From assembly GCF_947495725.1 (NCBI RefSeq), contig NZ_CANLZZ010000006.1, positions 124,001-188,000 of the forward strand: DNA of 64,000 bases. Reading direction: 5' to 3'. This document shows, in pieces, positions 28,161-63,494 of this stretch (within the stretch, counting starts at the first letter, position 1; each line of letters opens with the position of its first letter). The notes beneath the pieces were generated by a model. That model was not told where the DNA came from and searched no databases. It saw nothing but the letters and a program-made list of their open reading frames with translations. The position numbers and the translations under genes were made by a program. The DNA is from an uncultured Lutibacter sp. Its GTDB lineage: Bacteria > Bacteroidota > Bacteroidia > Flavobacteriales > Flavobacteriaceae.

Positions 28161-29756
28161 CTAAGAAAAATTTTGTAAAAATTCAGACAATATAGTTTTT
28201 CGAGGAAGGTTCATTTTTTTACGCAATCTACTTCTAGAAGTATTAATACCTTCAACGCTTATACCCATAATTTGGGCCATATCCTTACTTGAAAAACCAA
28301 GTTTAATAAATGCACACATTTTTAAATCTGTAGGCGTTAAAAGTGGATAATTAGACTTTAACGTAGAATAAAAACTGTCATTTACTGCTGTAAAATGCGA
28401 TTGAAACTCATTCCATTTTCCTTTAGTGCTTATGTTTAATGAGTTTTTAATTTCTTTAACAATATTAGTGTTTTCACCTTTTACACTTAGTTTGTTTAGT
28501 TGTTTTTTTAGGTCTTCTTGCAAGGTGTCTCGTTCTAGTAATTGTAAAGCAGAAGTTAGTAACTCCTTATTTTTTAGTTCTAATATTTCATCTTGTTTTT
28601 GTATTTCTAGTTGTTGTTTTTCATTTAAACTCTGTTGATTTAACAATTTCATTTTACTTTTTCGTTTGAAGTAAAAAAAGACAAATCCAAACAGACAGCT
28701 TAAAACAATAAATAAAGAAAACAATTTCAATATCCAAAATTCTTTTTCACTTTCTAGTAGCTTAAGTTGTTGCGATTTTAACTTTTCATTGTTTTCTTTA
28801 AGTTCAATTTCGTATTTATTTTTAATTTCAAATAATTCTTTGTTTTGCGATTTGTGACTACTAAAAATTTGATCATTTAAATCAGTCGCTAGGAGTAAAT
28901 ATTTATGCGCTAGTTTATAGTTTCCAATTTTTTCATAGTTTTCTGAAAGTTTCTTTGAAATTTGAAGCTTTTTATCTGGTTGATTTTCAAACTTCTCAAT
29001 AGCAGCAATACTTTTGCTGTAATAATAAATAGCAGAATCTCTATCTTTTTTTAATTCAGCGTATTGTCCAAGCCTTTGAAATAAAAGGGTGTGTGGTCTT
29101 TTTAAAGGAAGCGGGTAAATATTTTTTAATTTAAATAAGATTTTTTTTGCTTTGTTAGGTTCATTTTTTTTAATGTATATATGTGCTAATTGTATTTCAG
29201 AATAATGAAATGTGGCTTCATCAATATCACATTTTTTATAATATTCTATGCTTTTTAGAGCCAACTCTTCTGCTTTTTCAAAATTAAATGTAGATTTTAT
29301 TTCTATCCATGCTCCTAGGTTGTAAATTCTACCTAAAAACTTGTTTTTATTTTGTTGTTCATTACTTTGTTTTTCAATAACATCAATAGCTTTTAAATAA
29401 GTTTCTTTAGCTTTTTCATGCTGTTCAAAAACCATGTATAAAGAAATTAATATGTTTAGTGTTTCAATTTTCTGAGTTAAATATTTAGGTGTTTCTACCA
29501 ATGGAAAAAGTTTCCATAACTCATCGTAACTTTTACTATAAAATCCTTTTTTTGTATAAAATTGAATTAGTTTAAATCGAGCATTTATTATTTGAAGCGT
29601 ATCATTTTTTTTCTCGAAAGAAGTAACTGATGTTTGTAGTTTTTTTTCTTCTGAAAAAGCTTTGGTAGAATCAATTTGAATATTGTTCGAATAAAGAGAA
29701 AACGAAATAATAAAAAAAGATATATGTAAGATGTTCTTTAATAGCTTGTTAGTCAT
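28161..29756 (-). CDS. Membrane TPR protein with C-terminal LuxR-like helix-turn-helix
   Basis: A 531 aa regulator of the layout common in Bacteroidota. It has an N-terminal hydrophobic segment (residues ~7-24), tetratricopeptide-like helical repeats (~55-300), a transmembrane helix (~343-362, LFSLFIVLSCLFGFVFFYF), a cytoplasmic coiled coil rich in Lys, Glu and Gln, and a C-terminal helix-turn-helix near residues 475-525. In that HTH, LTPTDLKMCAFIKLGFSSKD precedes IMGISVEGINTSRSRLRKKM. TPRs would lie in the periplasm and the DNA-binding end in the cytoplasm. It is divergent from the three-sulfatase operon at 29969 and is a candidate local regulator; this is inferred from position only. Confidence 0.82.
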   Translation of the reverse strand: MTNKLLKNILHISFFIISFSLYSNNIQIDSTKAFSEEKKLQTSVTSFEKKNDTLQIINARFKLIQFYTKKGFYSKSYDELWKLFPLVETPKYLTQKIETLNILISLYMVFEQHEKAKETYLKAIDVIEKQSNEQQNKNKFLGRIYNLGAWIEIKSTFNFEKAEELALKSIEYYKKCDIDEATFHYSEIQLAHIYIKKNEPNKAKKILFKLKNIYPLPLKRPHTLLFQRLGQYAELKKDRDSAIYYYSKSIAAIEKFENQPDKKLQISKKLSENYEKIGNYKLAHKYLLLATDLNDQIFSSHKSQNKELFEIKNKYEIELKENNEKLKSQQLKLLESEKEFWILKLFSLFIVLSCLFGFVFFYFKRKSKMKLLNQQSLNEKQQLEIQKQDEILELKNKELLTSALQLLERDTLQEDLKKQLNKLSVKGENTNIVKEIKNSLNISTKGKWNEFQSHFTAVNDSFYSTLKSNYPLLTPTDLKMCAFIKLGFSSKDMAQIMGISVEGINTSRSRLRKKMNLPRKTILSEFLQNFS

Positions 29757-35093: not shown

Positions 35094-36242
35094 TTAAAAT
35101 GGAACCACCATAATTGTTTCTATAGCTAAATTGGTTCTATCTTTTCCAAAAGCTTTATAAACTGCTGTAAAATGAGATTTTCCCTTGAGGTGTTTTTTAT
35201 TAAAAACTTTTAGAGAATCAGCATTTGTAAAATATTCAATGGTTGCTTTAACTCCAATATCGTGATTTGAAAAAAATATGAATTGTTCTGTATTTTGAGG
35301 TCCGGGAATTCGAGATACAATTGCTATGTCATAGTCAAACCCTGAGTTGTTAGTTTTGAAATTTTTCTTAGGTAATACTTTATGATTAGAAAAGGAAAGA
35401 CTGTTGTTATTTAATTTAAAATATGGATTTGAATTGTTAAATAAGGAAATAAATTTGTTTTCATTCCTAATTGGTCCAACATAAATTGTATTTCCTTTTT
35501 TTAAATCGGCAATAGAGGTGTTAGAAGAAAATCGGATGTCGAAATCACTGTTTTGTTTAGAAAATAACTTAGCTAAATCGTGCGATGCATGTGCACCCAT
35601 TCCGGTAATATAATTATATTGGGCTGGACTCGTATTTTTTTTTAATTCAGGTTTATCTTCAATAAAATTGAAGTAATCTTTGGTGTTGTTTATTGTATAA
35701 TCACGTGTCCATCCATTTGAACCTGTTATTGTGGTTCCTGCAATTCCAAAGGCATCACCAATAATTAAAGTATTTGGCTTATTATTTGTGTAAAATTGTT
35801 CCCATAAAATTGAAGGGGAAGCTTTATACTTATCTAAAACATAAAGCAATGCAAATGCAAGTAATAACAAATATGGAAATACCTGCTGGAATTTTAAATT
35901 TGTTATTGATTTTTTTACAGCTAATTGTTTTTCAAAACGAACACTATACTGACCTTTATCAATACATATTTTCCATTCATTATTCGCACCAATAGTGTTG
36001 TAATAAGTATCTAGTTTTTTTCGAAGATTATAAATGTTAACTCTAACTCTTGGATTTGTTTTGTCAAAACTAGATTTACTTCCAAAGAATTCAAAATCGA
36101 TAATGTCTTCTTTTAAAAAACTACCTTCAATATTTGCTTTTACTAAATAACGCAGTAATGCCGAACTTTTAGGTGATTTTAAAAAGATTTTACTTTTAAT
36201 TATGTTATCGGTTATTTGTAGTTTTTTTTCTTCAGAAATCAT
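35094..36242 (-). CDS. ToxR/CadC-like transmembrane winged-helix regulator (paralogue 1)
   Basis: A 382 aa protein of no named family that I recognise. Residues 1-105 look cytoplasmic. Their second half (PRVRVNIYNLRKKLDTYY, then EWKICIDKGQYSVRF) has the shape of the recognition helix and wing of OmpR/PhoB-type winged helices, with KGQYSVRF in the position of the RGxGYRF hairpin. One transmembrane helix follows (~121-138). Residues 140-382 form a probable periplasmic domain with NTLIIGDAFGIAG, GSNGWTRDYTINN, FDIRFSS and FIFFSNHDIGVKATIEYFTN. This is the one-protein signalling layout of ToxR and CadC. It is divergent from the 36424 operon and shares an operator with its paralogue at 55098. Function is inferred. 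Confidence 0.7.
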   Translation of the reverse strand: MISEEKKLQITDNIIKSKIFLKSPKSSALLRYLVKANIEGSFLKEDIIDFEFFGSKSSFDKTNPRVRVNIYNLRKKLDTYYNTIGANNEWKICIDKGQYSVRFEKQLAVKKSITNLKFQQVFPYLLLLAFALLYVLDKYKASPSILWEQFYTNNKPNTLIIGDAFGIAGTTITGSNGWTRDYTINNTKDYFNFIEDKPELKKNTSPAQYNYITGMGAHASHDLAKLFSKQNSDFDIRFSSNTSIADLKKGNTIYVGPIRNENKFISLFNNSNPYFKLNNNSLSFSNHKVLPKKNFKTNNSGFDYDIAIVSRIPGPQNTEQFIFFSNHDIGVKATIEYFTNADSLKVFNKKHLKGKSHFTAVYKAFGKDRTNLAIETIMVVPF

Positions 36243-36281
36243 TCTAATAATTGTTCTATATTTAAAACATTTTATCTTAAA

Positions 36282-36318
36282 TTTAACCGTTACAAGTACC
36301 GTTAAATTCAGGTTAAAT
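36282..36318. promoter_or_regulatory. Triple direct-repeat operator candidate (copy 1)
   Basis: Three GTTA(A/C)A cores at 36289, 36301 and 36312 give a 12- then 11-base period; the first two are preceded by ACC. The block aligns without gaps with 56272-56308 (29 of 37 positions identical), and the cores are kept while the spacers vary. It lies 40 bases before the minus-strand regulator start and about 105 bases before the plus-strand start at 36424. Such helical-turn spacing is what OmpR/PhoB-type winged helices bind. Confidence 0.72.
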
Positions 36319-36340
36319 ATAGTTATTTTAATTGATTGTA

Positions 36341-36348
36341 TTAATTTG
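36341..36348 (+). promoter_or_regulatory. Possible -7 promoter element for the 36424 operon
   Basis: TTAATTTG differs from the Bacteroidota -7 consensus TAnnTTTG at one base. It starts 29 bases after the start of the last operator core, almost the same distance as the exact match in the second copy (30 bases), which supports it. No good TTTG -33 box is seen, fitting an activator-dependent promoter. Confidence 0.45.
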
Positions 36349-36423
36349 TGCTTGCATTATAGAAGAAATAAAGATTTATAATGTTGTAGTAGTAAAATAA
36401 AATAGTATTAATAAAAATATTTA

Positions 36424-37788
36424 ATGAAAAACTTAATCACTTTAGCAGCGGTATTGACAATTGCATTTAATGTAAGTGCTCAAAAAACACAAGATCTTTT
36501 TAACGGTAAAAATTTAAATGGCTGGAAAGCTTTAAATGGTTTTGCTAAATTCGAAGTAGAAGATAATGCCATTGTTGGAATTTCAACCAAAGGATCACCA
36601 AGTACTTATTTATCTACAAAAAAAGAATACACTAATTTTATTTTAGAATACGAAATTAAAATTGATGAAACATTAAATAGTGGGGTTCAAATTCGAAGTC
36701 ATCACGATCCTTCTAAAGGAGATAATTCTGTGTATGGACCACAAGTAGAAGCAGAAACTTCACCAAGAGGTTGGAATGGAGGAATATTTGACCAAAGTAG
36801 GTATAACTGGAGATATACTATTGAATACAATCCTGAAGTTAAAACAGCTTGGAAAAATGGAGCGTGGAACCGTGTAAAAGTTATTGCAAGCGGCAATAGA
36901 ATTGCAACTTGGATAAACGATGTAAATATTGCCAACCTTATTGAGGAAAATGTAGAAACTGGATTTATTGCATTACAAGTACATGCAGCAGGTGGTGCAA
37001 AAATTGGAAAAAAATCTAGATGGAGAAATATTAAACTTACAGAAATTTCAGACAATTATAATTTTGAAACAACTGCTCCAGTTATTAGTTATTTAAAGAA
37101 CGAACTTACACAAGAAGAAAAGAATAATGGATGGAAAATGCTTTGGGATGGTAAAACTACAAACGGTTGGAGAGGAGCCAAGCAAGATAAATTTCCAAAT
37201 AAAGGTTGGAGTATGAATGATGGAATTCTTTCGGTACATGCTTCTGGAGGTGGAGAATCTGAACACGGAGGAGATATTGTAACTACAAAGCCGTATAAGA
37301 ATTTTATATTAGAATTAGACTTTCAGTTTGCTGAAGGAGCTAATAGTGGTATCAAATATTTTGTTGATACTAATTTAAATAAAGGTAAAGGTTCTGCAAT
37401 TGGTTGTGAGTATCAAATATTAGACGATAAAAAACATCCTGATGCTAAAAAAGGAGTGGATGGAAACCGTACTTTATCTTCGTTGTACGATTTAATTAGA
37501 GGTGATGCTCAAGAATATATTCCTTCACTTTACACCAAGAAATATGTAAATAAAACCGGTTGGAACAGAGCCCGAATTGTAGTGGATGGTAATAAAGTCC
37601 AACACTTTTTAAATGGTTGCAAAACTGTTGAATATATTAGAGGAACTCAGCAATGGAGAGCCTTAGTTAAATATAGTAAATATAAAAACTGGCCAAATTT
37701 TGGTGAGGCTAAAGAAGGTCTTATTTTATTACAGGATCACGGAGATGAGGTTCATTTTAAAAATATTAAAATAAAAGAATTGAATTAA
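36424..37788 (+). CDS. Tandem DUF1080 (3-keto-glycoside hydrolase-like) secreted protein
   Basis: A 454 aa secreted protein (signal peptide ending VSAQ, residue 19) with two DUF1080 jelly-rolls. The first spans residues ~22-210 (DLFNGKNLNGWKAL, then SGVQIRSHHDPS and YGPQVEAE) and the second ~235-454 (MLWDGKTTNGWRGA, GWSMNDGILSVHASGG, NSGIKYFVDT, GCEYQILDD). Each begins with the LFNGK/LWDGK and GW hallmark. The family includes 3-keto-disaccharide hydrolases that cleave oxidised glycosides. It is the first gene after the operator, so it may be strongly induced. No sugar oxidoreductase that would make a 3-keto substrate is in this window. Confidence 0.85.
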   Translation: MKNLITLAAVLTIAFNVSAQKTQDLFNGKNLNGWKALNGFAKFEVEDNAIVGISTKGSPSTYLSTKKEYTNFILEYEIKIDETLNSGVQIRSHHDPSKGDNSVYGPQVEAETSPRGWNGGIFDQSRYNWRYTIEYNPEVKTAWKNGAWNRVKVIASGNRIATWINDVNIANLIEENVETGFIALQVHAAGGAKIGKKSRWRNIKLTEISDNYNFETTAPVISYLKNELTQEEKNNGWKMLWDGKTTNGWRGAKQDKFPNKGWSMNDGILSVHASGGGESEHGGDIVTTKPYKNFILELDFQFAEGANSGIKYFVDTNLNKGKGSAIGCEYQILDDKKHPDAKKGVDGNRTLSSLYDLIRGDAQEYIPSLYTKKYVNKTGWNRARIVVDGNKVQHFLNGCKTVEYIRGTQQWRALVKYSKYKNWPNFGEAKEGLILLQDHGDEVHFKNIKIKELN

Positions 37789-37800
37789 TTAGTTGTTATT

Positions 37801-40218
37801 ATGAAATCTAAATTTTTTAAAATCATATTTAACTTATCACTTGTGCTTTTAGTTAGTGGCTGTGAAAATTCAATTCAAAAACCTTCAAAAAGTGAAGTAA
37901 AAGCAATTACTAAAAAAGTGGCCGATTGGCAAATAAAAACTTTCGAAGATCAAGGTAAATATAGAGCATTGCCGTTACCTGAAAATCAAAAAAAGTGGCA
38001 TCACAGAAATAGGTATCACGATGCAGAATGGATGGGAGCAGCTTTGTATGCTGGTATGTATGAGTGGTCAACTATTACAGCAGACCCAACCTATAGCAAA
38101 TGGCTGTATGGGATTGGGCAAAAAAACAATTGGAAATTGTATAAAAGAATGTTTCATGCTGATGATCACGCTGTTGGGCAAATGTATTTGAATATGCAAA
38201 AGATGTTTGGAAATCATCGGTTGATAAAACCGTTGCGTAAACAGTTCGATTCAATTTTAAATAGCGATGAAAGAGATAAATGGCACTGGCATTGGGCAGA
38301 TGCCTTGTTTATGGCTCCTCCAGTTTGGGCAAGATTAGCTAAAGCTACCAAACAACAAAAATATTTGGAATATATGGATGAGCAGTATCATAAAACGTAT
38401 GATGCTTTATGGGATAAGAAGGAACATTTATTTTATAGAGATAAGAAATATTTAGATCAAAAAGAAGAAAACGGAAAAGGTGTTTTTTGGTCACGTGGAA
38501 ATGGATGGGTTTTTGGAGGTTTGGCTTTAATGATACCAGATTTCCCTAACGATTGGGATGGTAAACAGTTTTATGTTGAAACATTTCAACAAATGGCAGA
38601 AACGTTGAAAAATACACAGCGAAAAGATGGAACTTGGTCTTCGGGAATATTAGGTGGTGAAAAAGCATATCCAACAAAAGAAATCAGTGGTTCTGCATTT
38701 TTTGTATTCGGATTAGCTTGGGGAATAAATAATGGAATAATAGATGCTGAAGTTTATGAACCAACTTTAATTAAAGGTTGGAATGCATTAACGGATTGTG
38801 TTACCGAAGATGGTTTGGTTGGCTATATACAACCTGTTGGAGCTGCTCCTGGAAATAGCTTTCCAAATTATACTGAATTGTATGGTGTTGGAGCATTTTT
38901 AGCTGCTGGAGCCGAAATGTATAAATATGTTGAAAAAATTGAGGACGTAAATTCAAACAAAAAAGAAGTTAGCGAATTTACTACTTTTATGAATGATGGT
39001 GGTTGGTGTTGGTATCAAGATCCACGCGCTATTATAAATAATGGAAAGTTGGTTATTGGAGGTTTAAGTGGCCAAAGTGGAGATGTAAAAGTGAGTGTGT
39101 ATGATTTAGAAACAAATACAAATAAAGGTACAGTTGTTTTAGATAAAAACTTTCAAGCTGATGATCACGATGTGCCAGCTTTGTATGCTAGACCTGATGG
39201 AAGTATACTTTCTGTTTGGGCAAAACATGGTAACGAAAAAATTCATCATTATAATATTTCATCACCTTCAAACTATTTAGAATGGAATAATAAAAGTGAA
39301 TTTAAATACGATTATAACGATAATAGAGGTGTTACCTATATGAATTTGTATTATTTAGAAAATGAAAATAATCTGTATAATTTTTATAGAGATGGTGAAA
39401 CTTTTAACCCAAGCTTTATAACATCAAAAGATCACGGAAATACTTGGGGAAATAGGACTCATTTTATTGCTGATGATGTTGAAGGTCGTCAGCGTCCATA
39501 TGCTCGATATTTTCAAAAAGACAATAATACTGTAGGAGTTTCATTTACAGACGGTCATCCACGTCAATACGGGAATAGTTTGTATTATGCCGAGTTTAAA
39601 AACGGAGCTTTTTATAATGTAGATGGTTCAAAAATTAAAGATTTGAAAGAACCTTTAAGAACTCCGGAAGCTGAAAAGATTTATGTAGGAAGCGAAACAA
39701 AAACGAAACCAAAAGGTTTTGAAAGTGTACCAAAAAGTGCTTGGACTTGCGCTATGGGAAAAGATTCAGAAAACAATCCGCATATTGGTTATTCTCTATA
39801 TTTGAGTAATAATGATCACCGTTATAGAATTGCCGCTTGGGATGGAAAAAAATGGATTGATAAAGAAATTGCATATGCAGGAACGTGTTTGTACACTATG
39901 GAAAGTAGTTACACTGGTTTAATGGCTTTTGACCCTGAAAATCCAACACAGGTTTATATTTCAACAGATGTAAATCCTTCAACAGGTGAAAAAATGAATA
40001 ATATTCACGAGATTTATAGTGCGAAAATTGGATTAAATGACGATATTTCAACTATAAAATGGAAAGCAATTACTTCAAATTCTGAATATAGAAATATCCG
40101 CCCAATTGTTGTAGCAGGTGAAGGGCATAAAGCCTTGATTTGGTTAAACGGACCTTGGAATTCTTTCGTGAATTACAAAGCAGATGTAAAAGGAATTATT
40201 CTTTCTTCAAAAAAATAA
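37801..40218 (+). CDS. GH105 fused to BNR_4 propeller (possible unsaturated-uronyl hydrolase plus lyase)
   Basis: An 805 aa lipoprotein (VSGC, Cys21) with two enzyme-like domains. Residues ~30-385 are a GH105 alpha/alpha barrel: HDAEWMGAALYAGMYEWS, HADDHAVGQMYL, WHWHWADALFMAPPVWARLA with probable catalytic Asp167, and SRGNGWVFGGLAL. GH105 enzymes hydrolyse the unsaturated uronic acid left by polysaccharide lyases. Residues ~395-805 are a BNR_4 propeller beginning NDGGWCWYQDPRAI and including QADDHDVPALYARPDG, a layout known from PL24/PL25 ulvan lyases and from uncharacterised relatives. A single chain would then cut the polymer and remove the new unsaturated end. Lyase activity is inferred from fold only. 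Confidence 0.83.
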   Translation: MKSKFFKIIFNLSLVLLVSGCENSIQKPSKSEVKAITKKVADWQIKTFEDQGKYRALPLPENQKKWHHRNRYHDAEWMGAALYAGMYEWSTITADPTYSKWLYGIGQKNNWKLYKRMFHADDHAVGQMYLNMQKMFGNHRLIKPLRKQFDSILNSDERDKWHWHWADALFMAPPVWARLAKATKQQKYLEYMDEQYHKTYDALWDKKEHLFYRDKKYLDQKEENGKGVFWSRGNGWVFGGLALMIPDFPNDWDGKQFYVETFQQMAETLKNTQRKDGTWSSGILGGEKAYPTKEISGSAFFVFGLAWGINNGIIDAEVYEPTLIKGWNALTDCVTEDGLVGYIQPVGAAPGNSFPNYTELYGVGAFLAAGAEMYKYVEKIEDVNSNKKEVSEFTTFMNDGGWCWYQDPRAIINNGKLVIGGLSGQSGDVKVSVYDLETNTNKGTVVLDKNFQADDHDVPALYARPDGSILSVWAKHGNEKIHHYNISSPSNYLEWNNKSEFKYDYNDNRGVTYMNLYYLENENNLYNFYRDGETFNPSFITSKDHGNTWGNRTHFIADDVEGRQRPYARYFQKDNNTVGVSFTDGHPRQYGNSLYYAEFKNGAFYNVDGSKIKDLKEPLRTPEAEKIYVGSETKTKPKGFESVPKSAWTCAMGKDSENNPHIGYSLYLSNNDHRYRIAAWDGKKWIDKEIAYAGTCLYTMESSYTGLMAFDPENPTQVYISTDVNPSTGEKMNNIHEIYSAKIGLNDDISTIKWKAITSNSEYRNIRPIVVAGEGHKALIWLNGPWNSFVNYKADVKGIILSSKK

Positions 40219-40221
40219 AAA

Positions 40222-41649
40222 ATGAAACAAATTAGAATAGTATTTATTGTTTTGATAAGCGTATTTACAAGCTCATTGATTGCACAATCTAAAAAGCAAA
40301 AAAATATTCTTCTAATTTGTATTGATGATTTACGTCCAGAATTGGCGTCGTTTGGGGCGTCGTATATAAAGTCGCCCAATATTGATAAGTTGGCAAGTGA
40401 AGGTAGAGCATTTCATAATCATTATGTAAATTCACCAACTTGCGGAGCCTCAAGGTTTACAATGCTAACAGGAATGTATGGAACCTCCAAAAACGATGCG
40501 CTTTTTTTAAGAGCAAAAACAATGGCTAAAAAACCGGCTGAAGTAAATCCTAGTATGCCAGAATGGTTTAGAAATAATGGATATACAACTGTTTCCGTAG
40601 GGAAAGTTTCGCATCATCCAGGAGGAAGAGGCGGTAAGAATTGGGATGATCCTAACGTTATTGAAATGCCAAATGCTTGGGATAAACATTTAATGCCAGT
40701 TGCTGAATGGGAACACCCAAGAGGAGGAATGCACGGATTGGCAAATGGAGAAATTAGAGAAAAAGCCAATGAAATGGATCTTTTTCAGTCTGTTGAAGGT
40801 GAAGATACTATTTACCCTGATGGACATATTACAAATGAGGCTTTAAATCAGTTAGATGAATTAACTCACAACTCCGAAAAACCTTTCTTTTTAGCAGTAG
40901 GAATTATCAGGCCTCATTTACCGTTTGGAGCACCAAAAAAGTATTTAGATTTATATGAAGGTGTTGATATACCAAAAATTCCAAGTCCTGAAAAGCCAAA
41001 AGGGAAAACAACTTGGCACGGTTCAGGAGAATTTATGAAATACAATCGTTGGGGTAAAAACCCAAATGAAGATACTGTGTTTGCCGAGGAAGTTAGAAGG
41101 CATTATGCGGCTTGTGTAAGTTATGCCGATGCGCAGGTTGGTAAAATTATTTCAAAATTAAAAGAAACTGGAGCGGCTGAAAATACAATTGTTGTTTTGT
41201 GGGGAGATCACGGTTGGAATTTAGGTGATCACGCTATTTGGGGAAAACACAATTTGTTTGAAGAAGGTGTGCATTCTCCATTAATAATTTTATACCCAAA
41301 TATTAAAAAGAAAGGAAAAAGCACAAAAGCAATTGTTGAAACGGTAGATATTTTTCCAACACTTTGCGATTTAACGGGACTTGATATTCCTAATTTTGCT
41401 GATGGGAAATCTTTAAAATCACAGCTTAAAAACCCAAAAAAGGGCGGTCACGTTGCATTTGGATATAGAAATGGAGTGCATACAATTAGAACTGATAAAT
41501 ATCGATTTACAGTGTATAAGAATGGTGAAATGGAATTATATAACCATAAAACAGATCCTTATGAAACTAAAAATATAGCTTTAGAAAATCCAGAAGAAAT
41601 AGAGCGGCTAAAGTTGATGTTAAATGAAAAAATAAGTTCGGTAAAATAG
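40222..41649 (+). CDS. S1 family sulfatase, iduronate-2-sulfatase-like
   Basis: Secreted sulfatase of 475 aa (signal peptide ending LIAQ, about residue 22). The motif is CGASR (Cys74), with Ala in the third position, as often seen in the iduronate-2-sulfatase-like branch (S1_7). Further signatures of that branch are [40 protein letters not shown] in place of [27 protein letters not shown], and [25 protein letters not shown] with a GDH second metal site. It is the last gene of the operon with GH105-BNR_4, 3 bases downstream, which fits desulfation next to a uronic acid. Confidence 0.93.
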
Positions 41650-55083: not shown

Positions 55084-55117
55084 AAATGGCAGTAAGTTTA
55101 AAAACCTACTGCCATTT
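55084..55117. terminator. Bidirectional hairpin between GH28 and the regulator
   Basis: AAATGGCAGTA (55084-55094) and its exact complement (55107-55117) form an 11-base stem with a 12-base loop. The hairpin lies between convergent genes and includes the last codons and stop of the minus-strand regulator. On the minus strand the stem runs into TTTTATAATT; on the plus strand the T content after the stem is weaker. Confidence 0.68.
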
Positions 55118-56249
55118 CTAGTTTTATATCAGTATTAGTTCGGTGTTGTCCTTTTACTTTAAAAAGTGCTGTAAAATATTTTTTATTGTTTAAATAAGTC
55201 TTTATAAAACTTTGAATACTATCCTTATTGGTGAAATATTCTGCTGTAGCACTAACGCCAATATCGTGTTCAGAGAAAAAAACAAAATGTTCGGTGTTAT
55301 CTATACCTTGGTATTTTGATACAATGGCATATTCTTCATCTACTTCTCCAATATTAAAATGTATAATGGTATCCTTTATTTTTGGATGATTCGATAGAGT
55401 CAATTCATTTCTCGAAACTTTAAAATATGGATTTGATTCGTTGAAAAAGTGAGTGAATTGGTTTCCGTTTTTTATTGGACCAGCGTAAATTGCATTTCCT
55501 TCTTTTATTTCTGAAATTGAAGTTAATGTTGAAAATCTGATATCAAAATCCTTATTGTAATGTTGAAAAAAACGTTCAAATTGTTGTGTGGCCAATGAAG
55601 CCATTCTTGTAGTATATGTGTAGTTTGCAGGTTTTAGAGCGTTTTTTAAATCTGGGTTTACTTCGAGAAGATCATAAAATTCGTTCACGTTGTTCAACTC
55701 AAAATCACGTGTCCAACCTATTCCTCCAGTAACTGTTTTTCCCATAGCGCCAAAATGGTCTCCAATAATTAAATTAGTTGGTTTTTTTGTAGTGATAAAC
55801 GATTTCCAAATTCTTGGAGGCTTAGGAGTAGAATTTGTAATAATAAGCGCTAATATTGCCATTACTAAGGCTGCATATGGAATGGCTTTTGACCAACTGA
55901 AGTGTTTTGTAAATTGACTTTTAAGCTGTTTTCTGAAAAAACGAATCTGATACTGCCCTTTATCAATTGTCAGTTGCCAAATATCATCTTTACCTTCGTT
56001 TTCGTAATAGCTAGTAATTTTCTTTCTTAAATTGTAAACATTAACTCTAACTCGTGGGTTATTCCTATCGCTTACTTCTTTGCTTCCAAAAAAATCAATT
56101 TCAATAACACTTTCTTTTAAAGGAGTTTTTTTTAATGTAGCATCTAATAAGTATTGTAAAAGGGCATTACTTGTTGGGGCATTTTTAAATGTTTTACTAT
56201 TTCTTATTTTAGTTGTAATCTCTTGTTTTTGTTCATCTGAAAGTCTCAT
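55098..56249 (-). CDS. ToxR/CadC-like transmembrane winged-helix regulator (paralogue 2)
   Basis: A 383 aa paralogue of the 35094-36242 protein, aligned over its whole length. The cytoplasmic end contains ALLQYLLDATL and FFGSKEVSDRNNPRVRVNVYNLRKKI (recognition-helix candidate), then IWQLTIDKGQYQIRF (wing candidate). One transmembrane helix lies at ~120-137 (IPYAALVMAILALIITN). The outer domain keeps NLIIGDHFGAMG, GWTRDFELNN, FDIRFSTLTS, AIYAGPIKNGNQF and HFVFFSEHDIGVSATAEYFTN. Conservation of the outer domain suggests both bind related ligands. It is divergent from uxaC and the GH2-GH2-GH117 operon, with the second copy of the operator between. Function is inferred from layout. Confidence 0.7.
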   Translation of the reverse strand: MRLSDEQKQEITTKIRNSKTFKNAPTSNALLQYLLDATLKKTPLKESVIEIDFFGSKEVSDRNNPRVRVNVYNLRKKITSYYENEGKDDIWQLTIDKGQYQIRFFRKQLKSQFTKHFSWSKAIPYAALVMAILALIITNSTPKPPRIWKSFITTKKPTNLIIGDHFGAMGKTVTGGIGWTRDFELNNVNEFYDLLEVNPDLKNALKPANYTYTTRMASLATQQFERFFQHYNKDFDIRFSTLTSISEIKEGNAIYAGPIKNGNQFTHFFNESNPYFKVSRNELTLSNHPKIKDTIIHFNIGEVDEEYAIVSKYQGIDNTEHFVFFSEHDIGVSATAEYFTNKDSIQSFIKTYLNNKKYFTALFKVKGQHRTNTDIKLEMAVGF

Positions 56250-56271: not shown

Positions 56272-56308
56272 TTTAACCGTTATAGCTACCGTTAAAGTTG
56301 CGTTAAAG
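56272..56308. promoter_or_regulatory. Triple direct-repeat operator candidate (copy 2)
   Basis: GTTA(T/A)A cores at 56279, 56291 and 56302 reproduce the 12- and 11-base periods of the copy at 36282-36318. It begins 22 bases before the regulator coding start (minus strand) and ends 104 bases before the uxaC start. Both ends match the first copy in orientation relative to both divergent genes. Confidence 0.72.
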
Positions 56309-56331
56309 TTACTAAAACGATTCTTTATAAA

Positions 56332-56339
56332 TACATTTG
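56332..56339 (+). promoter_or_regulatory. -7 promoter element for the uxaC-GH2-GH117 operon
   Basis: TACATTTG is an exact match to the Bacteroidota -7 consensus TAnnTTTG. It starts 30 bases after the start of the last operator core. The -33 position falls just after that core, so a bound regulator would touch the polymerase there. The predicted leader to the ATG at 56413 is about 65 bases. Confidence 0.6.
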
Positions 56340-56412: not shown

Positions 56413-57813
56413 ATGAAACCTTTTTTAGATAGTGAATTTATTCTTGAAACAAGAACAGCAAGTGAGCTTTTTCACAAGAGTGCAGAACATATGCCAATTA
56501 TAGATTACCATTGTCATTTGAGTCCAAAACAAATTGCCGAAAACAAAAACTTTAAAAATATAACAGAAATTTGGTTGTATGGTGATCATTATAAATGGAG
56601 AGCTATGCGAACAAATGGTGTAGATGAAAGATTTTGTACTGGTGATGCTTCAGATTGGGAAAAATTTGAAAAATGGGCACAAACAGTTCCATTTACATTG
56701 AGAAATCCATTGTATCACTGGACACATATGGAACTGAAAAATTATTTTGGTTTCGATGGAATTTTGAATGGTGAAACTGCAAAAGAAGTTTGGGACTTAG
56801 CCAATGAAAAGTTGCAGTTAGAAGCATTTAAACCACAAGGGTTAATGAAAATGATGAATGTTGAAGTAGTTTGCACAACTGATGACCCTATCGATTCTTT
56901 AGAATATCATATCCAAATTGCAAAAAGCGATTGTGAAATTAAGGTATTGCCAACTTGGAGGCCGGATAAAGCAATGGCTGTTGAAGATGCAGAAAGTTTT
57001 AATGATTATATGGTGAAATTATCTGAGGTTTCGGGTGTTTATATCAATTGTTATGAAGATTTATTAAGCGCCTTAAATACTCGTCACGATTTCTTTAATG
57101 AAATAGGTTGTAAATTATCAGATCACGGAATTGAAGTTTTTTATGCTGAAGATTATACAGAAGCCGAAATTAGAACAATCTTCTTTAAAATTAGATCTGG
57201 GATTGAATTAGGTTCAATTGAAATAGCGAAATTTAAATCTGCAATGCTCTATGAATTAGGAGTAATGGATCATAAAAAAGGTTGGGTTCAGCAATTTCAT
57301 TATGGTGCAATTAGAGATAATAATAGTAGATTATTGTCAAAGTTAGGTCCCGATACTGGATTTGATTCCATTCACGATTTAAATAGTGCGGCTGCTATGT
57401 CTAAATATTTAAATTTATTAGATAGTGAAGATAAATTGACTAAAACAATTATTTATAATTTAAATCCTTCACAAAATGAGGTTGTTGCCACAATGATTGG
57501 GAATTTTCAAGATGGTACAGTTCCCGGTAAAATTCAATTTGGTTCAGGTTGGTGGTTTTTAGATCAAAAAACGGGAATGGAAGCTCAAATGAATACATTG
57601 TCTAGCCTTGGTTTGTTAAGTCGGTTTGTTGGAATGCTAACAGATTCTAGAAGCTTTATGTCATATCCACGTCACGAATATTTTAGACGTATTTTATGCA
57701 ATTTATTAGGTAATGATGTTGAAAATGGATTGTTACCTAATGATATGAAATTGTTGGGAAGTATGGTGGAGGATATTTGCTATAACAACGCAAAAAATTA
57801 TTTCAAATTTTAA
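56413..57813 (+). CDS. uxaC: Uronate (glucuronate) isomerase
   Basis: Cytoplasmic enzyme of 466 aa converting D-glucuronate to D-fructuronate or D-galacturonate to D-tagaturonate, the first step of uronate catabolism. It belongs to the amidohydrolase superfamily: the metal-binding HxH lies in IIDYHCHLSPK (His33, His35). Other family blocks are LYGDHYKWRAMRTNGV, CTTDDPIDSLEYH, VLPTWRPDKA, FHYGAIRDNNSR and MLTDSRSFMSYPRHEYFRRILC. No signal peptide. It is the first gene of the operon driven from the second operator, which ties the regulator to uronic-acid release. The other enzymes of the pathway are not in the window. Confidence 0.95.
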   Translation: MKPFLDSEFILETRTASELFHKSAEHMPIIDYHCHLSPKQIAENKNFKNITEIWLYGDHYKWRAMRTNGVDERFCTGDASDWEKFEKWAQTVPFTLRNPLYHWTHMELKNYFGFDGILNGETAKEVWDLANEKLQLEAFKPQGLMKMMNVEVVCTTDDPIDSLEYHIQIAKSDCEIKVLPTWRPDKAMAVEDAESFNDYMVKLSEVSGVYINCYEDLLSALNTRHDFFNEIGCKLSDHGIEVFYAEDYTEAEIRTIFFKIRSGIELGSIEIAKFKSAMLYELGVMDHKKGWVQQFHYGAIRDNNSRLLSKLGPDTGFDSIHDLNSAAAMSKYLNLLDSEDKLTKTIIYNLNPSQNEVVATMIGNFQDGTVPGKIQFGSGWWFLDQKTGMEAQMNTLSSLGLLSRFVGMLTDSRSFMSYPRHEYFRRILCNLLGNDVENGLLPNDMKLLGSMVEDICYNNAKNYFKF

Positions 57814-57823
57814 ATGTCGAAGT

Positions 57824-60649
57824 ATGAAAGTTTTAAAAATAGTTCTGCTAATGCTAGTTGTATTTTCAACTCAGTTAGGAAATGCACAAGGTAAACACGA
57901 AACCCAAATTCAATATTTATCTGGTACAGATAAAGACAACCTTGTTGAATGGGATTTTTATTGTTCGGAAGGACGAAAAAGCGGTGAATGGACAAAAATT
58001 GGAGTACCATCTTGTTGGGAACAGCAAGGTTTTGGAAACTACAATTATGGAAGTGATGATGAGAAGAATAGAGCCAAAGAGTTTGGTTTGTATAAGCATA
58101 CTTTTAATGTGCCAAACAACTGGAAAAACAAAGATGTAAAACTTGTTTTTGAAGGTGTAATGACGGATGCCGAAGTGAAAATTAATGGAAAATTGGCCGG
58201 AGAAATTCATCAAGGTTCTTTTTATGAATTTAATTATACCATTTCAAAATTATTGAAATATGGTAAAGACAATGTATTAGAGGTTAAAGTAAACAAGGTT
58301 TCAGCAAACGAATCTATCAACCACGCAGAGCGTGTTGCAGATTTTTGGATTTTTGGAGGAATTTATCGTCCAGTTTATTTAACCATTTCACCTAAAGACA
58401 ATATTGATAGAGTTGCAATTGATGCAAAAGCAGATGGAAACATTATTGCAGATGTTTTTATAGATTCAAAAAAAGCTGATAACGTTGAATTGTCTTTATT
58501 CGATTTAAAAGGAAAGAAACTTCAAGATATTACAGTAGAAAATATTCAAAAAGAAATTGGAAAGTTTAAAGTTTCAGGAAAAGCAAACAATGTAAAATCT
58601 TGGAATCCAGAACAGCCAAATTTATATGTGTTACAATTTGATTTGTTGGATAAAAAAGGAAATGTTTTACATACAGTGAATAAACGTGTTGGGTTTAGAA
58701 CCGTTGAAATTTTAGAAGGTGATGGAATTTATGTAAACGGTGAGCGAATTAAATTTAAAGGTGTAAACCGTCATTCTTTTCATCCAAAATCTGGACGAAC
58801 AACATCAAAAGCATTTAGTATTGAGCACGCAAGAATGATGAAAGATATGAATATGAATGCGGTTCGTATGGCTCATTATCCGCCAGACACTCATTTTTTA
58901 GAAGTATGTGATTCTATTGGATTATTTGTTATTGATGAAATTTGCACCTGGCACAATCCAATGCTAGAAACTAAAGTTGCTCGTAAAATTGTAAAAGAAA
59001 CGGTAGTTCGTGATGTAAATCATCCATCAATTTTATTGTGGGCAAATGGAAATGAGCAAGGTTGGAATCCAGAAGTTGATGATGATTACGCAAAATGGGA
59101 TATTCAAAACAGAGAAGTAATTCACCCTTGGAGTATTTACAAAAAAACAAATACACTTCATTATGGCCATTATCACTCGTTAATTAATGATGCTTATACA
59201 AAAGATAAAATTTTATTTCCAACAGAATTTTTACACGGTTTATACGATGGTGGTCACGGTGCAGGACTAGATGATTATTGGAATGTAATGTGGAATTTAC
59301 CATTAAGTGCTGGAGGTTTTCTTTGGGATTTTGCAGATGAAGGTATTGAGCGAACTGACCGAAATAATGAGATTGATTTACAAGGAAATAAAGCTCCTGA
59401 TGGTATAGTTGGACCTTATGGAGAAAAAGAAGGAAGTTATTTTACTATTAAAGAAATTTGGTCGCCAATCTATATTGAAAATCGTTTTATTAGAAATGAT
59501 TTTAATGGAGTTTTTAGAGTTGAAAACCGTTACCATTACACCAATTTAGAAGAATGTACAATGACAGCTAAATGGGTAAAGTTTGAAGCTCCAAACGAGG
59601 GATTGAAAACAACCATTTTAGCTGAAAATAAAGTGAAACTTCCAAGTTTAAAACCTTCAGAAAAGGGAATTTTTAATATTGAAAAACCTCAAAATTGGCA
59701 GTCAGCTGATGCGTTGCATTTAACAGCAATCGATGCTCACGGAATGGAAATTTTCACGTGGACTTACCCAGTAGCTTCACCAAAAGAAGTAAGTAACTCA
59801 AAAATTGATTATTCAACAAAAGGAAGTGTTAAAACTGAAACAACAAACAAAACTATTAAAGTTGAGGCAAATGGAATTATGTATTCATTTTCAGAAGAGA
59901 ACGGTTTACTTCAAGAAGTGAAAAAAGGGAACAAAATAATTCCATTAAATAATGGTCCAATTATTTTAAATCAGAAGGATAAAATCATTGATGTGAGTGT
60001 AAAAGAACTTGAAGGTAAAACCGAAATTCAAGTAACTTTTGAAGAGAAAAAATGGATGCCAGCTTGGTCAACAATTAAAGAAAAGCGTTCAGATATTATC
60101 AAATGGACCGTTCATTCTAACGGATTATTAGATTTAAAAGTTGAGTTTAAAGGATTAAGAAATTTAAAGGGGTTTAGAGGAATAACGTTTTCTTTTCCAG
60201 AAGAAGAAGTTGCAGGTATGAAATGGTTGGGTGATGGCCCATACAGAGTGTGGAGAAATAGAATGAAAGGAACAAAATTCCAAGTTTGGGAAAACGATTA
60301 TAACAACACCGTAACAGGAGAATCTGGTTTTGTGTACCCAGAATTTAAAGGGTTCTTTTCAAGTTTATATTGGTCAAAAGTAAAAGGAAATAACAATAAC
60401 GGATTTACAGTGTATTGCAAAACGCCACACACGTATTTGCGAATGCTCACTCCGCAAGAACCAAAAGAGAATAAAAAAGGAAAAACACATCCTGAATTTC
60501 CAAAAGGAGATATTTCATTTGTAATGAATATTCCTGGAATTGGTACAAAATTTCAGTTCCCAGAAAGTACAGGTCCACAAGGAAATAGTGAACACTATTT
60601 TGGAAATGATGACAAGCCTATAATTCTTGATTTAACATTTGAATTTTAA
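57824..60649 (+). CDS. GH2 beta-galactosidase (first of tandem pair)
   Basis: A 941 aa exported GH2 (signal peptide ending GNAQ, residue 22). Domains: jelly-roll (~28-190; VPSCWEQQGFGNYNYG, GVMTDAEVKINGKLAGEIHQG), Ig-like (~195-290), TIM barrel (~295-600) with acid/base Glu411 (NGNEQGWN) and nucleophile Glu468 (FPTEFLHG), a further beta-domain, and a C-terminal beta-sandwich (~680-941; GMKWLGDGPYRVWRNRMKGT) like the small-chain domain of large beta-galactosidases. The N-terminal block TQIQYLSGTDKDNLVEWDFYC is one I associate with GH2 enzymes of red-algal galactan loci, where exo-beta-D-galactosidase activity is known. It starts 10 bases after uxaC. Confidence 0.92.
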   Translation: MKVLKIVLLMLVVFSTQLGNAQGKHETQIQYLSGTDKDNLVEWDFYCSEGRKSGEWTKIGVPSCWEQQGFGNYNYGSDDEKNRAKEFGLYKHTFNVPNNWKNKDVKLVFEGVMTDAEVKINGKLAGEIHQGSFYEFNYTISKLLKYGKDNVLEVKVNKVSANESINHAERVADFWIFGGIYRPVYLTISPKDNIDRVAIDAKADGNIIADVFIDSKKADNVELSLFDLKGKKLQDITVENIQKEIGKFKVSGKANNVKSWNPEQPNLYVLQFDLLDKKGNVLHTVNKRVGFRTVEILEGDGIYVNGERIKFKGVNRHSFHPKSGRTTSKAFSIEHARMMKDMNMNAVRMAHYPPDTHFLEVCDSIGLFVIDEICTWHNPMLETKVARKIVKETVVRDVNHPSILLWANGNEQGWNPEVDDDYAKWDIQNREVIHPWSIYKKTNTLHYGHYHSLINDAYTKDKILFPTEFLHGLYDGGHGAGLDDYWNVMWNLPLSAGGFLWDFADEGIERTDRNNEIDLQGNKAPDGIVGPYGEKEGSYFTIKEIWSPIYIENRFIRNDFNGVFRVENRYHYTNLEECTMTAKWVKFEAPNEGLKTTILAENKVKLPSLKPSEKGIFNIEKPQNWQSADALHLTAIDAHGMEIFTWTYPVASPKEVSNSKIDYSTKGSVKTETTNKTIKVEANGIMYSFSEENGLLQEVKKGNKIIPLNNGPIILNQKDKIIDVSVKELEGKTEIQVTFEEKKWMPAWSTIKEKRSDIIKWTVHSNGLLDLKVEFKGLRNLKGFRGITFSFPEEEVAGMKWLGDGPYRVWRNRMKGTKFQVWENDYNNTVTGESGFVYPEFKGFFSSLYWSKVKGNNNNGFTVYCKTPHTYLRMLTPQEPKENKKGKTHPEFPKGDISFVMNIPGIGTKFQFPESTGPQGNSEHYFGNDDKPIILDLTFEF

Positions 60650-60659
60650 TTGATAAAAA

Positions 60660-63494
60660 ATGAAATACTATAAAATATATACACTTCTAATAGTTGCTTT
60701 TCTATTCAGTAATTCAGAAGTTGTTTTGGCCCAAAATTTAATTGAAACTCAATATTTGTCTGGTACAGATAAAGACAATTTGGTTGAATGGGATTTTTAT
60801 TGTTCAGATGGAATGAACAGTAAAGAATGGGCTAAAATTGGAGTGCCTTCTTGTTGGGAATTGCAAGGTTTTGGAAACTACAATTACGGACGTGATTATA
60901 AAATTCCAAAAGAGTATCACGATGAATACGGTTTATATAAACACAAATTTATAGTGCCAAAAGCGTGGAAAAATAGAGAAGTGAAAATTGTTTTTGAAGG
61001 TGTTATGACGGATGCTGAAGTAAAAATTAATGGAAAATTAGCCGGAGAAATTCATCAAGGAGCTTTTTATGAATTCAAATATTCCATTACAAAATTATTA
61101 AAATATGGAGCAGAGAATTTAGTAGAAGTGAAGGTGAATAAAATGTCTTCAAACAAATCTATTAATAGTGCTGAACGTAATACAGATTTCTGGATTTTTG
61201 GTGGAATTTATCGCCCAGTGTATTTACAAGCATTTCCAAAAGAACACATTGAGCGTGTTGCTGTTGATGCAAAAGCAAATGGAACAATTAAGGCAGAACT
61301 GTTTACAAAATCTAAAAAAGCTTTACAAACTAAAATTGTTTTAGCGAATGCTAAAGGAGAGAAAATAAATGATTTAAATGTAGAGCAATTGGCTAAAGAA
61401 AATGGAAAATGGACGGTTTCAACCAAAGCTTCAGATATAAAATCTTGGAATCCTGAGAAACCAGTGATGTATCAATTACATTTTAGTTTAATGGATAAAA
61501 ATGGAAAAAATCTTCATACTTATATCCAAAAAATAGGATTTAGAACTGTTGAAGTTAGAGAAGGAGATGGAATTTATGTAAACAACCAACGTATTAAGTT
61601 TAAAGGTGTAAATCGTCATTCGTTTCATCCAGAATCAGGGAGAACAACTTCAAAAGCATTGAGTATTGAGCATATTAAAATGATGAAGGATATGAATATG
61701 AATGCCGTACGTATGTCGCATTATCCGCCAGATGTTCACTTTTTAGAGGCTTGTGATTCTTTAGGATTATTTGTACTTGATGAGCTTTGTACTTGGCACA
61801 CACCGTATTTAGATACCAAAGTTGGAAAAAAACTGGTTAAAGAAACGGTAGTTAGAGATGTCAATCATCCATCAATTGTACTTTGGGATAATGGAAATGA
61901 AAGTGGATGGAATACTGAATTGGATGATGAATTTTCTAAATGGGATATTCAAAATAGAGAGGTAATTCATCCGTGGGGAATTTTCAAAAAAACAAATACA
62001 TTCCACTATTTACCATATCACGGACTGGCTTATGATGGCTATGTAAAAGATAAAATATCATTTCCTACCGAATTTTTACACGGATTGTATGATGGTGGTC
62101 ACGGAGCTGGATTAGATGAATATTGGAAAATAATGTGGGATTTACCATTATCAGCAGGAGGGTTTTTATGGGATTTTGCAGATGAAGCAGTTGTTAGAAC
62201 AGATAAAAATAGAGCTTTAGATGCCGATGGAAATCACGCACCTGACGGTATTGTTGGTCCTTACGGAGAAAAAGAAGGAAGTTACTTTACTATTAAAGAA
62301 GTTTGGTCTCCAATTTATATTGAAGATCGTTATATAAGAGAAAGTTTTAACGGTGAATTTAGGGTTGAAAATCGCTATCACTACACAAATTTGAATGCTT
62401 GCACTATAAAAGCGAAATGGGTGAAGTTTGATGGCCCAAAAGGTTCAACAGAAGAGCAAATAATTTCAGAAAGTAATGTAAATCTACCTTCAGTAAAACC
62501 AGAACAAAAAGGAATTTTTAAAGTTGATTTACCTCAAAATTGGACTTCAGCTGATGCATTGTATTTAACAGCTACAGATCAACACGGAATGGAAATTTTT
62601 ACGTGGTCGTATCCTGTTAAACTTCCAAAAAACTATAATAAAAATAAAATCAGTTATTCTGGAAATGGGAAAATAATAACCAAAACTGGCGATTCTAAAA
62701 TTGAAATTACAGTAAAAGAATTAGACTTAACATTTTCTGCTAAAACAGGTTTAATTGAAAAGGTTGTTAAAAACGGAGTATTGATTCCATTATCAAATGG
62801 ACCAATTATTTTAGATAGTAAAAACAAAATAGATACTGTTTACGTAAATTCTTCTGAAGAAAAAGTAGAAGTAATAGCCTTGTTTGAAGCCAAGAAAAAA
62901 TACTATGATTGGAAAGATAATAACGAAATGACAAGAGAATCTATTAAATGGACAATTCATTCAAACGGTATTGTAGATTTAAATGTTGAAATAAAAAGTA
63001 CACGTAAAACAAAAGGCTTTAAAGGAATTACATTTTCATTTCCAGAGAAAGAAGTTGCAGGTATGAAATGGTTAGGTGACGGACCGTACAGAGTTTGGCG
63101 AAATAGAATGAAAGGAACTCAATTAAAAGTTTGGGAAAGCGATTATAACAATACAATAACAGGAGAATCTGGTTATGTGTATCCAGAATTTAAAGGTTAT
63201 TTCTCAAGTTTATATTGGATGCAATTACGTGGCAATAATAACAATGGTTTTAATGTATATAACCATAATGCACATACTTTTTTACGTATGCTTACTCCAG
63301 ATAAACCTTTTGAAGCATTGCGAGGTTCAGATGATACAAAATGGCCTAGTGGAGATATTTCTTTTGTGAAAAATATTTCACCTATTGGATCTAAATTTAA
63401 AGAAATTGGAGAAATGGGACCTACAAGTAACGAAGAAATGATTTTTGGTAACGATGATGAGCCAATTAAAATAGATTTAACCTTTGAATTTTAA
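60660..63494 (+). CDS. GH2 beta-galactosidase (second of tandem pair)
   Basis: A 944 aa paralogue of the preceding gene with the same domain order. Acid/base Glu414 is in DNGNESGWN and nucleophile Glu471 in FPTEFLHG. Long blocks are unchanged, including GVMTDAEVKINGKLAGEIHQG and GGFLWDFADE. Differences occur near the active site (WDNGNESGW against WANGNEQGW; CTWHTPYLDTK against CTWHNPMLETK) and in an extra five residues near the N terminus (RDYKIPKEYHDEYG), so the pair may separate substituted from plain galactose. The signal peptide ends VLAQ, residue 25. It starts 10 bases after its paralogue. Confidence 0.92.
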   Translation: MKYYKIYTLLIVAFLFSNSEVVLAQNLIETQYLSGTDKDNLVEWDFYCSDGMNSKEWAKIGVPSCWELQGFGNYNYGRDYKIPKEYHDEYGLYKHKFIVPKAWKNREVKIVFEGVMTDAEVKINGKLAGEIHQGAFYEFKYSITKLLKYGAENLVEVKVNKMSSNKSINSAERNTDFWIFGGIYRPVYLQAFPKEHIERVAVDAKANGTIKAELFTKSKKALQTKIVLANAKGEKINDLNVEQLAKENGKWTVSTKASDIKSWNPEKPVMYQLHFSLMDKNGKNLHTYIQKIGFRTVEVREGDGIYVNNQRIKFKGVNRHSFHPESGRTTSKALSIEHIKMMKDMNMNAVRMSHYPPDVHFLEACDSLGLFVLDELCTWHTPYLDTKVGKKLVKETVVRDVNHPSIVLWDNGNESGWNTELDDEFSKWDIQNREVIHPWGIFKKTNTFHYLPYHGLAYDGYVKDKISFPTEFLHGLYDGGHGAGLDEYWKIMWDLPLSAGGFLWDFADEAVVRTDKNRALDADGNHAPDGIVGPYGEKEGSYFTIKEVWSPIYIEDRYIRESFNGEFRVENRYHYTNLNACTIKAKWVKFDGPKGSTEEQIISESNVNLPSVKPEQKGIFKVDLPQNWTSADALYLTATDQHGMEIFTWSYPVKLPKNYNKNKISYSGNGKIITKTGDSKIEITVKELDLTFSAKTGLIEKVVKNGVLIPLSNGPIILDSKNKIDTVYVNSSEEKVEVIALFEAKKKYYDWKDNNEMTRESIKWTIHSNGIVDLNVEIKSTRKTKGFKGITFSFPEKEVAGMKWLGDGPYRVWRNRMKGTQLKVWESDYNNTITGESGYVYPEFKGYFSSLYWMQLRGNNNNGFNVYNHNAHTFLRMLTPDKPFEALRGSDDTKWPSGDISFVKNISPIGSKFKEIGEMGPTSNEEMIFGNDDEPIKIDLTFEF

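Follow-up and report, generated by a model that had tools for sequence, protein, structure and literature searches.

An intergenic 40-bp block that occurs twice in the window studied here (64,000 nucleotides from an uncultured Lutibacter sp., the whole stretch of DNA analysed) is, in our judgement, quite probably the operator of the membrane-anchored one-component regulator encoded beside it, which would activate the divergent catabolic operon from there. Sequence comparison shows it to be a composite site with three ACnGTTA-like cores at 12 and 11 bp, which occurs once per regulator neighbourhood, is linked to one regulator clade and lies in fixed phase with the -7 element of the divergent promoter. 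The two loci comprise the following features (window coordinates).

35094-36242, minus strand: regulator 1 (382 aa), with a winged-helix-like domain at residues 1-105, a transmembrane helix at about 118-138 and an alpha/beta domain at 147-382
36282-36321, plus strand: operator 1 (40 bp), TTTAAC-c-GTTA / ACCGTTAAA / GTTAAA..TA, core spacings 12 and 11, 51.1 bits by a matrix without its own copy
36341-36348, plus strand: -7 promoter element of operon 1, TTAATTTG, one mismatch to TAnnTTTG, starting 29 bases after the last core start
36424-37788, plus strand: first gene of operon 1, 3-keto-disaccharide hydrolase domain protein (PF06439; Pfam)
37801-40218, plus strand: operon 1, glycosyl hydrolase family 88, unsaturated uronyl type (Pfam)
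40222-41649, plus strand: operon 1, sulfatase (Pfam)
55098-56249, minus strand: regulator 2 (383 aa), 45% identical to regulator 1
56272-56311, plus strand: operator 2 (40 bp), architecture of operator 1, subtype T12, G26, G37, 60.6 bits by a matrix without its own copy
56332-56339, plus strand: -7 promoter element of operon 2, TACATTTG, an exact TAnnTTTG, starting 30 bases after the last core start
56413-57813, plus strand: first gene of operon 2, glucuronate isomerase UxaC (Pfam)
57824-60649, plus strand: operon 2, glycosyl hydrolase family 2 (Pfam)
60660-63494, plus strand: operon 2, glycosyl hydrolase family 2 (Pfam)

The surroundings of these loci are rich in polysaccharide genes. The window holds 45 reading frames with a length of 90 aa or more, and besides both regulators 28 of them were scanned with Pfam; they include nine sulfatases, members of GH2, GH16, GH28, GH43 and GH88, an alpha-L-fucosidase, a mutarotase, UxaC and the 3-keto-disaccharide hydrolase protein. 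Despite this richness in sulfatases and glycoside hydrolases, no SusC- or SusD-type protein was found among the 28 scanned frames. Amid the polysaccharide genes there is also a 531-aa frame (28161-29756, minus strand) for which Pfam gave nothing at E up to 1e-5.

The preliminary description of this DNA had reported two 37-base blocks agreeing at 29 positions, with three GTTA cores at periods of 12 and 11 bases, each block standing between a minus-strand membrane regulator and a plus-strand catabolic operon, and a TAnnTTTG-like element 29 and 30 bases after the last core start. All of this was recovered at both loci. The blocks at 36282-36318 and 56272-56308 are identical at 29/37 bases in an ungapped alignment, a value reached by 0/2000 simulated intergenic pairs (first-order Markov), whose best ungapped 37-base match was 28. 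The cores start at 36289, 36301 and 36312 in the first block and at 56279, 56291 and 56302 in the second. When the window was scanned with a matrix of 40 columns derived from 64 copies elsewhere, leaving out the two in the window, the top two places were exactly the two reported sites (60.6 and 51.1 bits) and the next scored -0.5; the maximum in 20 simulated windows under the same matrix was 8.9 bits.

Conservation of the block upstream of orthologous regulators, on which the earlier proposal had been made to depend, is widespread. The first round comprised 85 loci (the best 80 of 153 contig matches plus five host-genome loci), in which the 300 nt upstream of each regulator were scored on both strands against 29 fixed bases. 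Scores of 23-29 were obtained in 58/85 loci, and 58/58 of these sites point away from the regulator, while 850 shuffled upstream sequences gave at most 20/29. Two further searches for relatives brought the set to 121 distinct regulators, the later ones being scanned in the away-from-regulator orientation only, and the block is present upstream of 66 of them (score at least 23). Several genera contribute close copies; with regulators more than 60% identical merged, 22 groups have a median score of 27, the floor of 23 being the selection rule. The operator observation is real, and far stronger than two copies alone could show.

In a quick tree of the 121 regulators (LG+G4, SH-aLRT only), the carriers are 66/70 members of a single clade (SH-aLRT 95). 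The operator class requires 5 changes on this tree and the first divergent gene, coarsely coded, 14 among carriers, indicating that the site follows the regulator and not the kind of target. Indeed, the divergent targets among carriers range over UxaC, GH2, GH88, 3-keto-disaccharide hydrolases and SusC-sized proteins, and a divergent reading frame is present at 118/121 regulators. The closest named relatives, among the matches listed, are from Lutibacter. The restriction to flavobacteria that had been suggested stands only in that Flavobacteriaceae belong to the clade, since operators also adjoin orthologues in Labilibaculum, Draconibacterium, Flammeovirga, Reichenbachiella and others, that is, in Labilibaculum-type and Flammeovirga-type genera too. 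At E 1e-20, the regulator was matched in 3/38 genomes of the genus, 21/299 of a family sample and 10/296 of a phylum sample (host counted each time); the system is sparse and accessory, as expected for polysaccharide loci. Another genome has a tail-to-tail pair of regulator family members separated by 37 bases (G009:C51:566970-569325).

The four clade members without a regular nearby site are single cases from draft assemblies, and three of them (L047, L114 and L141) have no divergent reading frame. At L047, which comes from a metagenome bin, a 326-aa frame in the same direction as the regulator intervenes, occupying bases 67-1045 upstream of its start. The operator (54.2 bits) is found 1147 bp from the regulator, and the next plus-strand frame begins about 100 bp beyond it. 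We take the intervening frame to be reminiscent of Rpn-type transposase-like proteins, and L047 amounts to a natural separation experiment in which the regulator was parted from its operator. The site at L114 has decayed to 2.9 bits, no operator was found at L141, and L147 has both a target and a variant site (22/29, 20.9 bits).

The consensus over 58 sites is wTTAACsGTTAyArnTACCGTTAAAgnnrsGTTAAAknTA, with flanks near background; conservation extends to block base 40 (TA at 39-40) and then falls until the -7 element. Three direct GTTA repeats had been proposed, of which units 2 and 3 are clearly tandem but unit 1 is not a plain direct repeat. Unit 1 (TTTAACsGTTA) fits unit 2 better inverted than direct. 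A direct reading needs A at base 12, where 62/66 carriers have T or C; an inverted one agrees with unit 2 over ACsGTTAAA, base 3 being T in 64/66 and base 2 in 65/66. The mismatch at base 12 and the inverted fit together indicate that unit 1 is palindromic and preferentially inverted. Among the 66 carriers, the distance from unit 2 to unit 3 is 11 bp in 55 and 10 bp in 5, and it was not found in 6. A third subtype, at L131, L146, L147 and L148, reads TTTAACCnTTAAAACAACCnTTAAA followed 10 bp on by GTTAAAA, and adjoins 3-keto-disaccharide hydrolase genes.

Cores at this spacing are also seen in part of the wider family. Among 55 paralogous regulators below the site threshold, pairs of ACnGT 11 or 12 bp apart occur in 39/55 (expected 0.1-0.3) and are lacking in 16/55; among the spacings, 11 bp (21 pairs) and 12 bp (41 pairs) stand out, where shuffles give 0.1-0.2. 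Longer chains, of three or four ACnGT, are present in 15/55, with zero for seven other gap pairs, and TTAACnGTTA is present in 27/55, followed in 24/27 by ACnGT at 11/12. Since ACnGT is its own reverse complement, core spacing alone cannot set orientation, and a strand test with ACnGT alone was discarded because the opposite strand gives an equal count (39/55). In 15 held-out regulators from a phylum-wide sample, a pair at 11/12 was found in 3/15, and in 0/12 of the most distant of them (208-316 bits). The idea that every family member has the repeat was therefore rejected; the operator code is valid for part of the regulator family only.

The reading of the block as an activator site follows mainly from its fixed phase to the -7 element. 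An exact TAnnTTTG is found at offset 61 in 21/66 carriers and once at each of three other offsets. When one mismatch is tolerated, 48/66 have it at offsets 60-63, whereas 200 shuffles gave a mean of 4.0 and a largest value of 10; a good element at the expected offset is absent from 18/66 carriers, and 15/22 merged regulator groups have one. The flavobacterial -7 box is placed at -12 to -5 and given as TAnnTTTG in the available text of an earlier study (PMC9723704), so that the operator would extend from about -72 to -33 with respect to the divergent catabolic promoter and the last core would lie at about the -33 region, abutting or replacing it. The predicted transcription starts would be near 36353 and 56344, with leaders of about 71 and 69 nt. 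As the start codons of the window regulators are only 22-39 bp from the site, its occupancy probably influences transcription of the regulator gene as well.

The same geometry bears on a rival view, in which the regulator, bound at the site, represses the divergent operon, its own gene or both until its ligand releases it. The site ends beside the -33 region, where a bound protein could block either promoter, and lies 22 and 39 bp upstream of the start codons of the window regulators (14-71 bp in nearly all first-round carriers). Yet the spacing to the -7 element is kept within 60-63 in those 48/66 carriers, a constraint that activators need and repressors rarely do; the site at L047 stayed with the far promoter, away from the regulator; and no second -7 element conserved in the direction of the regulator was seen in the site profile. 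We thus consider repression unlikely.

Activation by the adjacent protein also has to be weighed against a proposal in which an unlinked transcription factor binds the site and the regulator is merely a neighbour. In its favour, the adjacent protein is a putative binder of the site, and its DNA-binding domain has no confident solved relative. The distribution of the site argues against it: no locus has a second site above 15 bits in the 1.24 Mb covered, so there is one per regulator neighbourhood, and the site tracks one regulator clade over several lineages. In the host genome (4.24 Mb), which has five full-length regulator relatives and one C-terminal fragment, a pattern search with up to three mismatches gave 8 places, no more than a reversed control (25); four of these are found upstream of the five regulators, another (L088) falls within a 763-aa reading frame, and the only mismatch-free core matches are the two window sites. 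A dispersed regulon was discarded on the same control. Control thus looks local, with weaker distant sites possible, and an unlinked factor seems to us very improbable. The C-terminal fragment (G000:C3:552815-553087, minus strand) matches only the C-terminal end of the family and has one internal stop.

We give hardly any credence to an RNA element in the regulator leader or the end of a mobile element: the TTTAAC/GTTAAA inverted repeat can pair and the regulator-strand stretch 36243-36330 folds better than its own shuffles (z -2.5), but the other three of four stretches fold like shuffles (z -0.7 to -1.3), the central S base alternates between C and G without a pairing partner, and the block is phased with the promoter of the opposite strand and is unrepeated within loci.

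The anatomy of the regulators is compatible with the proposed role as membrane-anchored activators. AlphaFold2 models built with 44 sequences reached a pLDDT of 89.7 and a pTM of 0.65 for the whole chain, and 92.2 and 0.86 for residues 1-110. Modelled helices at 24-39, 45-51 and 64-82 with a hairpin at 90-94/101-105 resemble a helix-turn-helix plus wing, the last of the three helices being the presumed recognition helix. An N-terminal beta-sheet is absent from both models, in which helices 4-15 and 18-21 come first and the only strands are 90-94 and 101-105. A strong predicted transmembrane window (19 residues, Kyte-Doolittle at least 1.6, start index 113-137) is present in 113/121 regulators and a weaker one (1.19-1.58, index 116-133) in the remaining 8; none of the 121 has a second. 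Lysine and arginine are richer on the N side of this window in 95/121, and we infer a cytoplasmic N-terminal and an extracytoplasmic C-terminal domain.

For the assignment of the DNA-binding domain to the OmpR/PhoB type, made in the preliminary description, only a profile comparison speaks, and it points to a remote link at most. A comparison by hhalign with 22 OmpR-type C-terminal domains gave a probability of 51 and a score of 29.7, against at most 1.9 and 17.5 in 60 column shuffles and a probability of 1.6 for MarR; the probability was 24 while three wrongly picked sequences sat in the OmpR-type set. Against the assignment stand the missing N-terminal beta-sheet, the Pfam scores and the structural search. 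Regulator 1 scores 13.6 bits with PF00486 (Trans_reg_C), for which the cut-off is 26.2, and regulator 2 is unmatched at E up to 1; in the wider family, 29/44 sequences have a match at E up to 1, the best at 9.7e-4, and a search of the host genome at E up to 0.001 gave 3 places, none among the 5 regulators. At E up to 1, the only Pfam matches in the regulators are sub-threshold ones to PF00486 and GerPE, and NCBIfam gave none. No solved relative was found by sequence for regulator 1 or the 44-member profile (E up to 1), Foldseek returned no match under E 0.001 for the whole or the N-terminal model, and no OmpR-type chain was among the 50 matches listed. With no confident Foldseek match, the term winged helix rests here on model anatomy and profile comparison. 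For the alpha/beta domain, the best Foldseek match was BcsB (7l2z; E 3.5e-3, probability 0.96, TM-score 0.22), with alpha-glucuronidases lower.

A possible mechanism can be drawn from these elements. The periplasmic alpha/beta domain would sense a polysaccharide breakdown product which, as a guess from the gene context, is probably a uronate-containing, partly sulfated oligosaccharide. The ligand might gather regulator molecules or alter their stance, so that two or three of the cytoplasmic winged-helix-like domains (residues 1-105) would bind the cores side by side. The domain on the last core might then contact RNA polymerase at the promoter and switch on the degradative operon.

No description of the regulator family or of the operator was found in the literature covered, most subscription journals and preprints being outside this coverage, and a text search for operator strings gave no Bacteroidota regulation paper among the matches listed. 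Within these bounds the control circuit is undescribed, as had been proposed, and the membrane-anchored switch protein beside algal-polysaccharide genes of marine Bacteroidetes is apparently of an undescribed kind. We lean slightly towards a broader view, in which these proteins form a family of their own: one-component activators anchored in the membrane, whose winged helix is reduced, whose periplasmic domain senses glycans and whose composite operator, a palindrome plus a tandem pair, is fixed at the -33 edge. The family would have spread through Bacteroidota and would serve polysaccharide operons as a modular switch that turns them on strictly locally, existing alongside SusR, hybrid two-component and ECF systems, and its operator code would predict the target, the promoter and probably the inducing sugar. 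How marine Bacteroidota sense the identity of algal polysaccharides is known for few loci. In the present sensor family, sequence is enough to tell the target promoter, the binding site and the likely polarity (66 sites, one architecture), which makes predictions testable at single-base level. Moreover, the signal must cross the inner membrane within one chain, a step that is poorly understood even for CadC-like proteins, and such proteins hold the prospect of ready-made, self-contained glycan-responsive switches for Bacteroidota.

Several known systems resemble this one in part. The regulators of polysaccharide utilization loci (SusR-like, hybrid two-component, ECF sigma/anti-sigma and the AraC-type CgrA of the Zobellia carrageenan locus) likewise control polysaccharide operons locally and mostly sense in the periplasm. 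In contrast to them, Pfam (E up to 1) found no kinase, receiver, AraC, sigma-70 region or FecR domain in either regulator, and thus none of the domains of those systems. In the text available from them, the Zobellia regulon papers name AraC-, PadR-, TetR-type and other regulators and not the present family (PMC5698469, PMC5613140), and the accessible part of a review names other classes of such regulators but not the one described here (PMC10766802). The weak Foldseek likeness of part of the sensor to BcsB and to non-catalytic domains of GH67/GH115 may serve as a lead only.

CadC, according to the part of the text available, has a DNA-binding domain with an N-terminal four-stranded sheet and binds AT-rich DNA through few specific contacts, at TTAxxxxT head to head (PMC5430869). 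Compared with this account, the regulators described here have no N-terminal sheet, another sensor domain and a conserved three-core operator. Like CadC/ToxR-type activators, they combine a cytoplasmic winged-helix-like DNA-binding domain, one transmembrane helix and an extracytoplasmic sensor in a single chain, with sites upstream of the promoter to be activated; the OmpR-type winged helix of that class was not found in them by Pfam, models or Foldseek. The PhoB/OmpR response regulators bind tandem sites next to the -35 region. The present system differs from them in that its regulators are membrane-fixed, without receiver domain or kinase and with Trans_reg_C below cut-off, and in its palindromic first operator unit. 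It resembles them in its tandem cores, which are spaced by about one turn and end at the upstream element of the promoter, and in the VRVxxxxLRKKL helix of the regulators, which aligns with IDVHIRKLREKI in OmpR-type proteins from the same genus. Taken together, the regulators would act like CadC- or PhoB-type activators, yet by the tests made they appear to fall outside PF00486.
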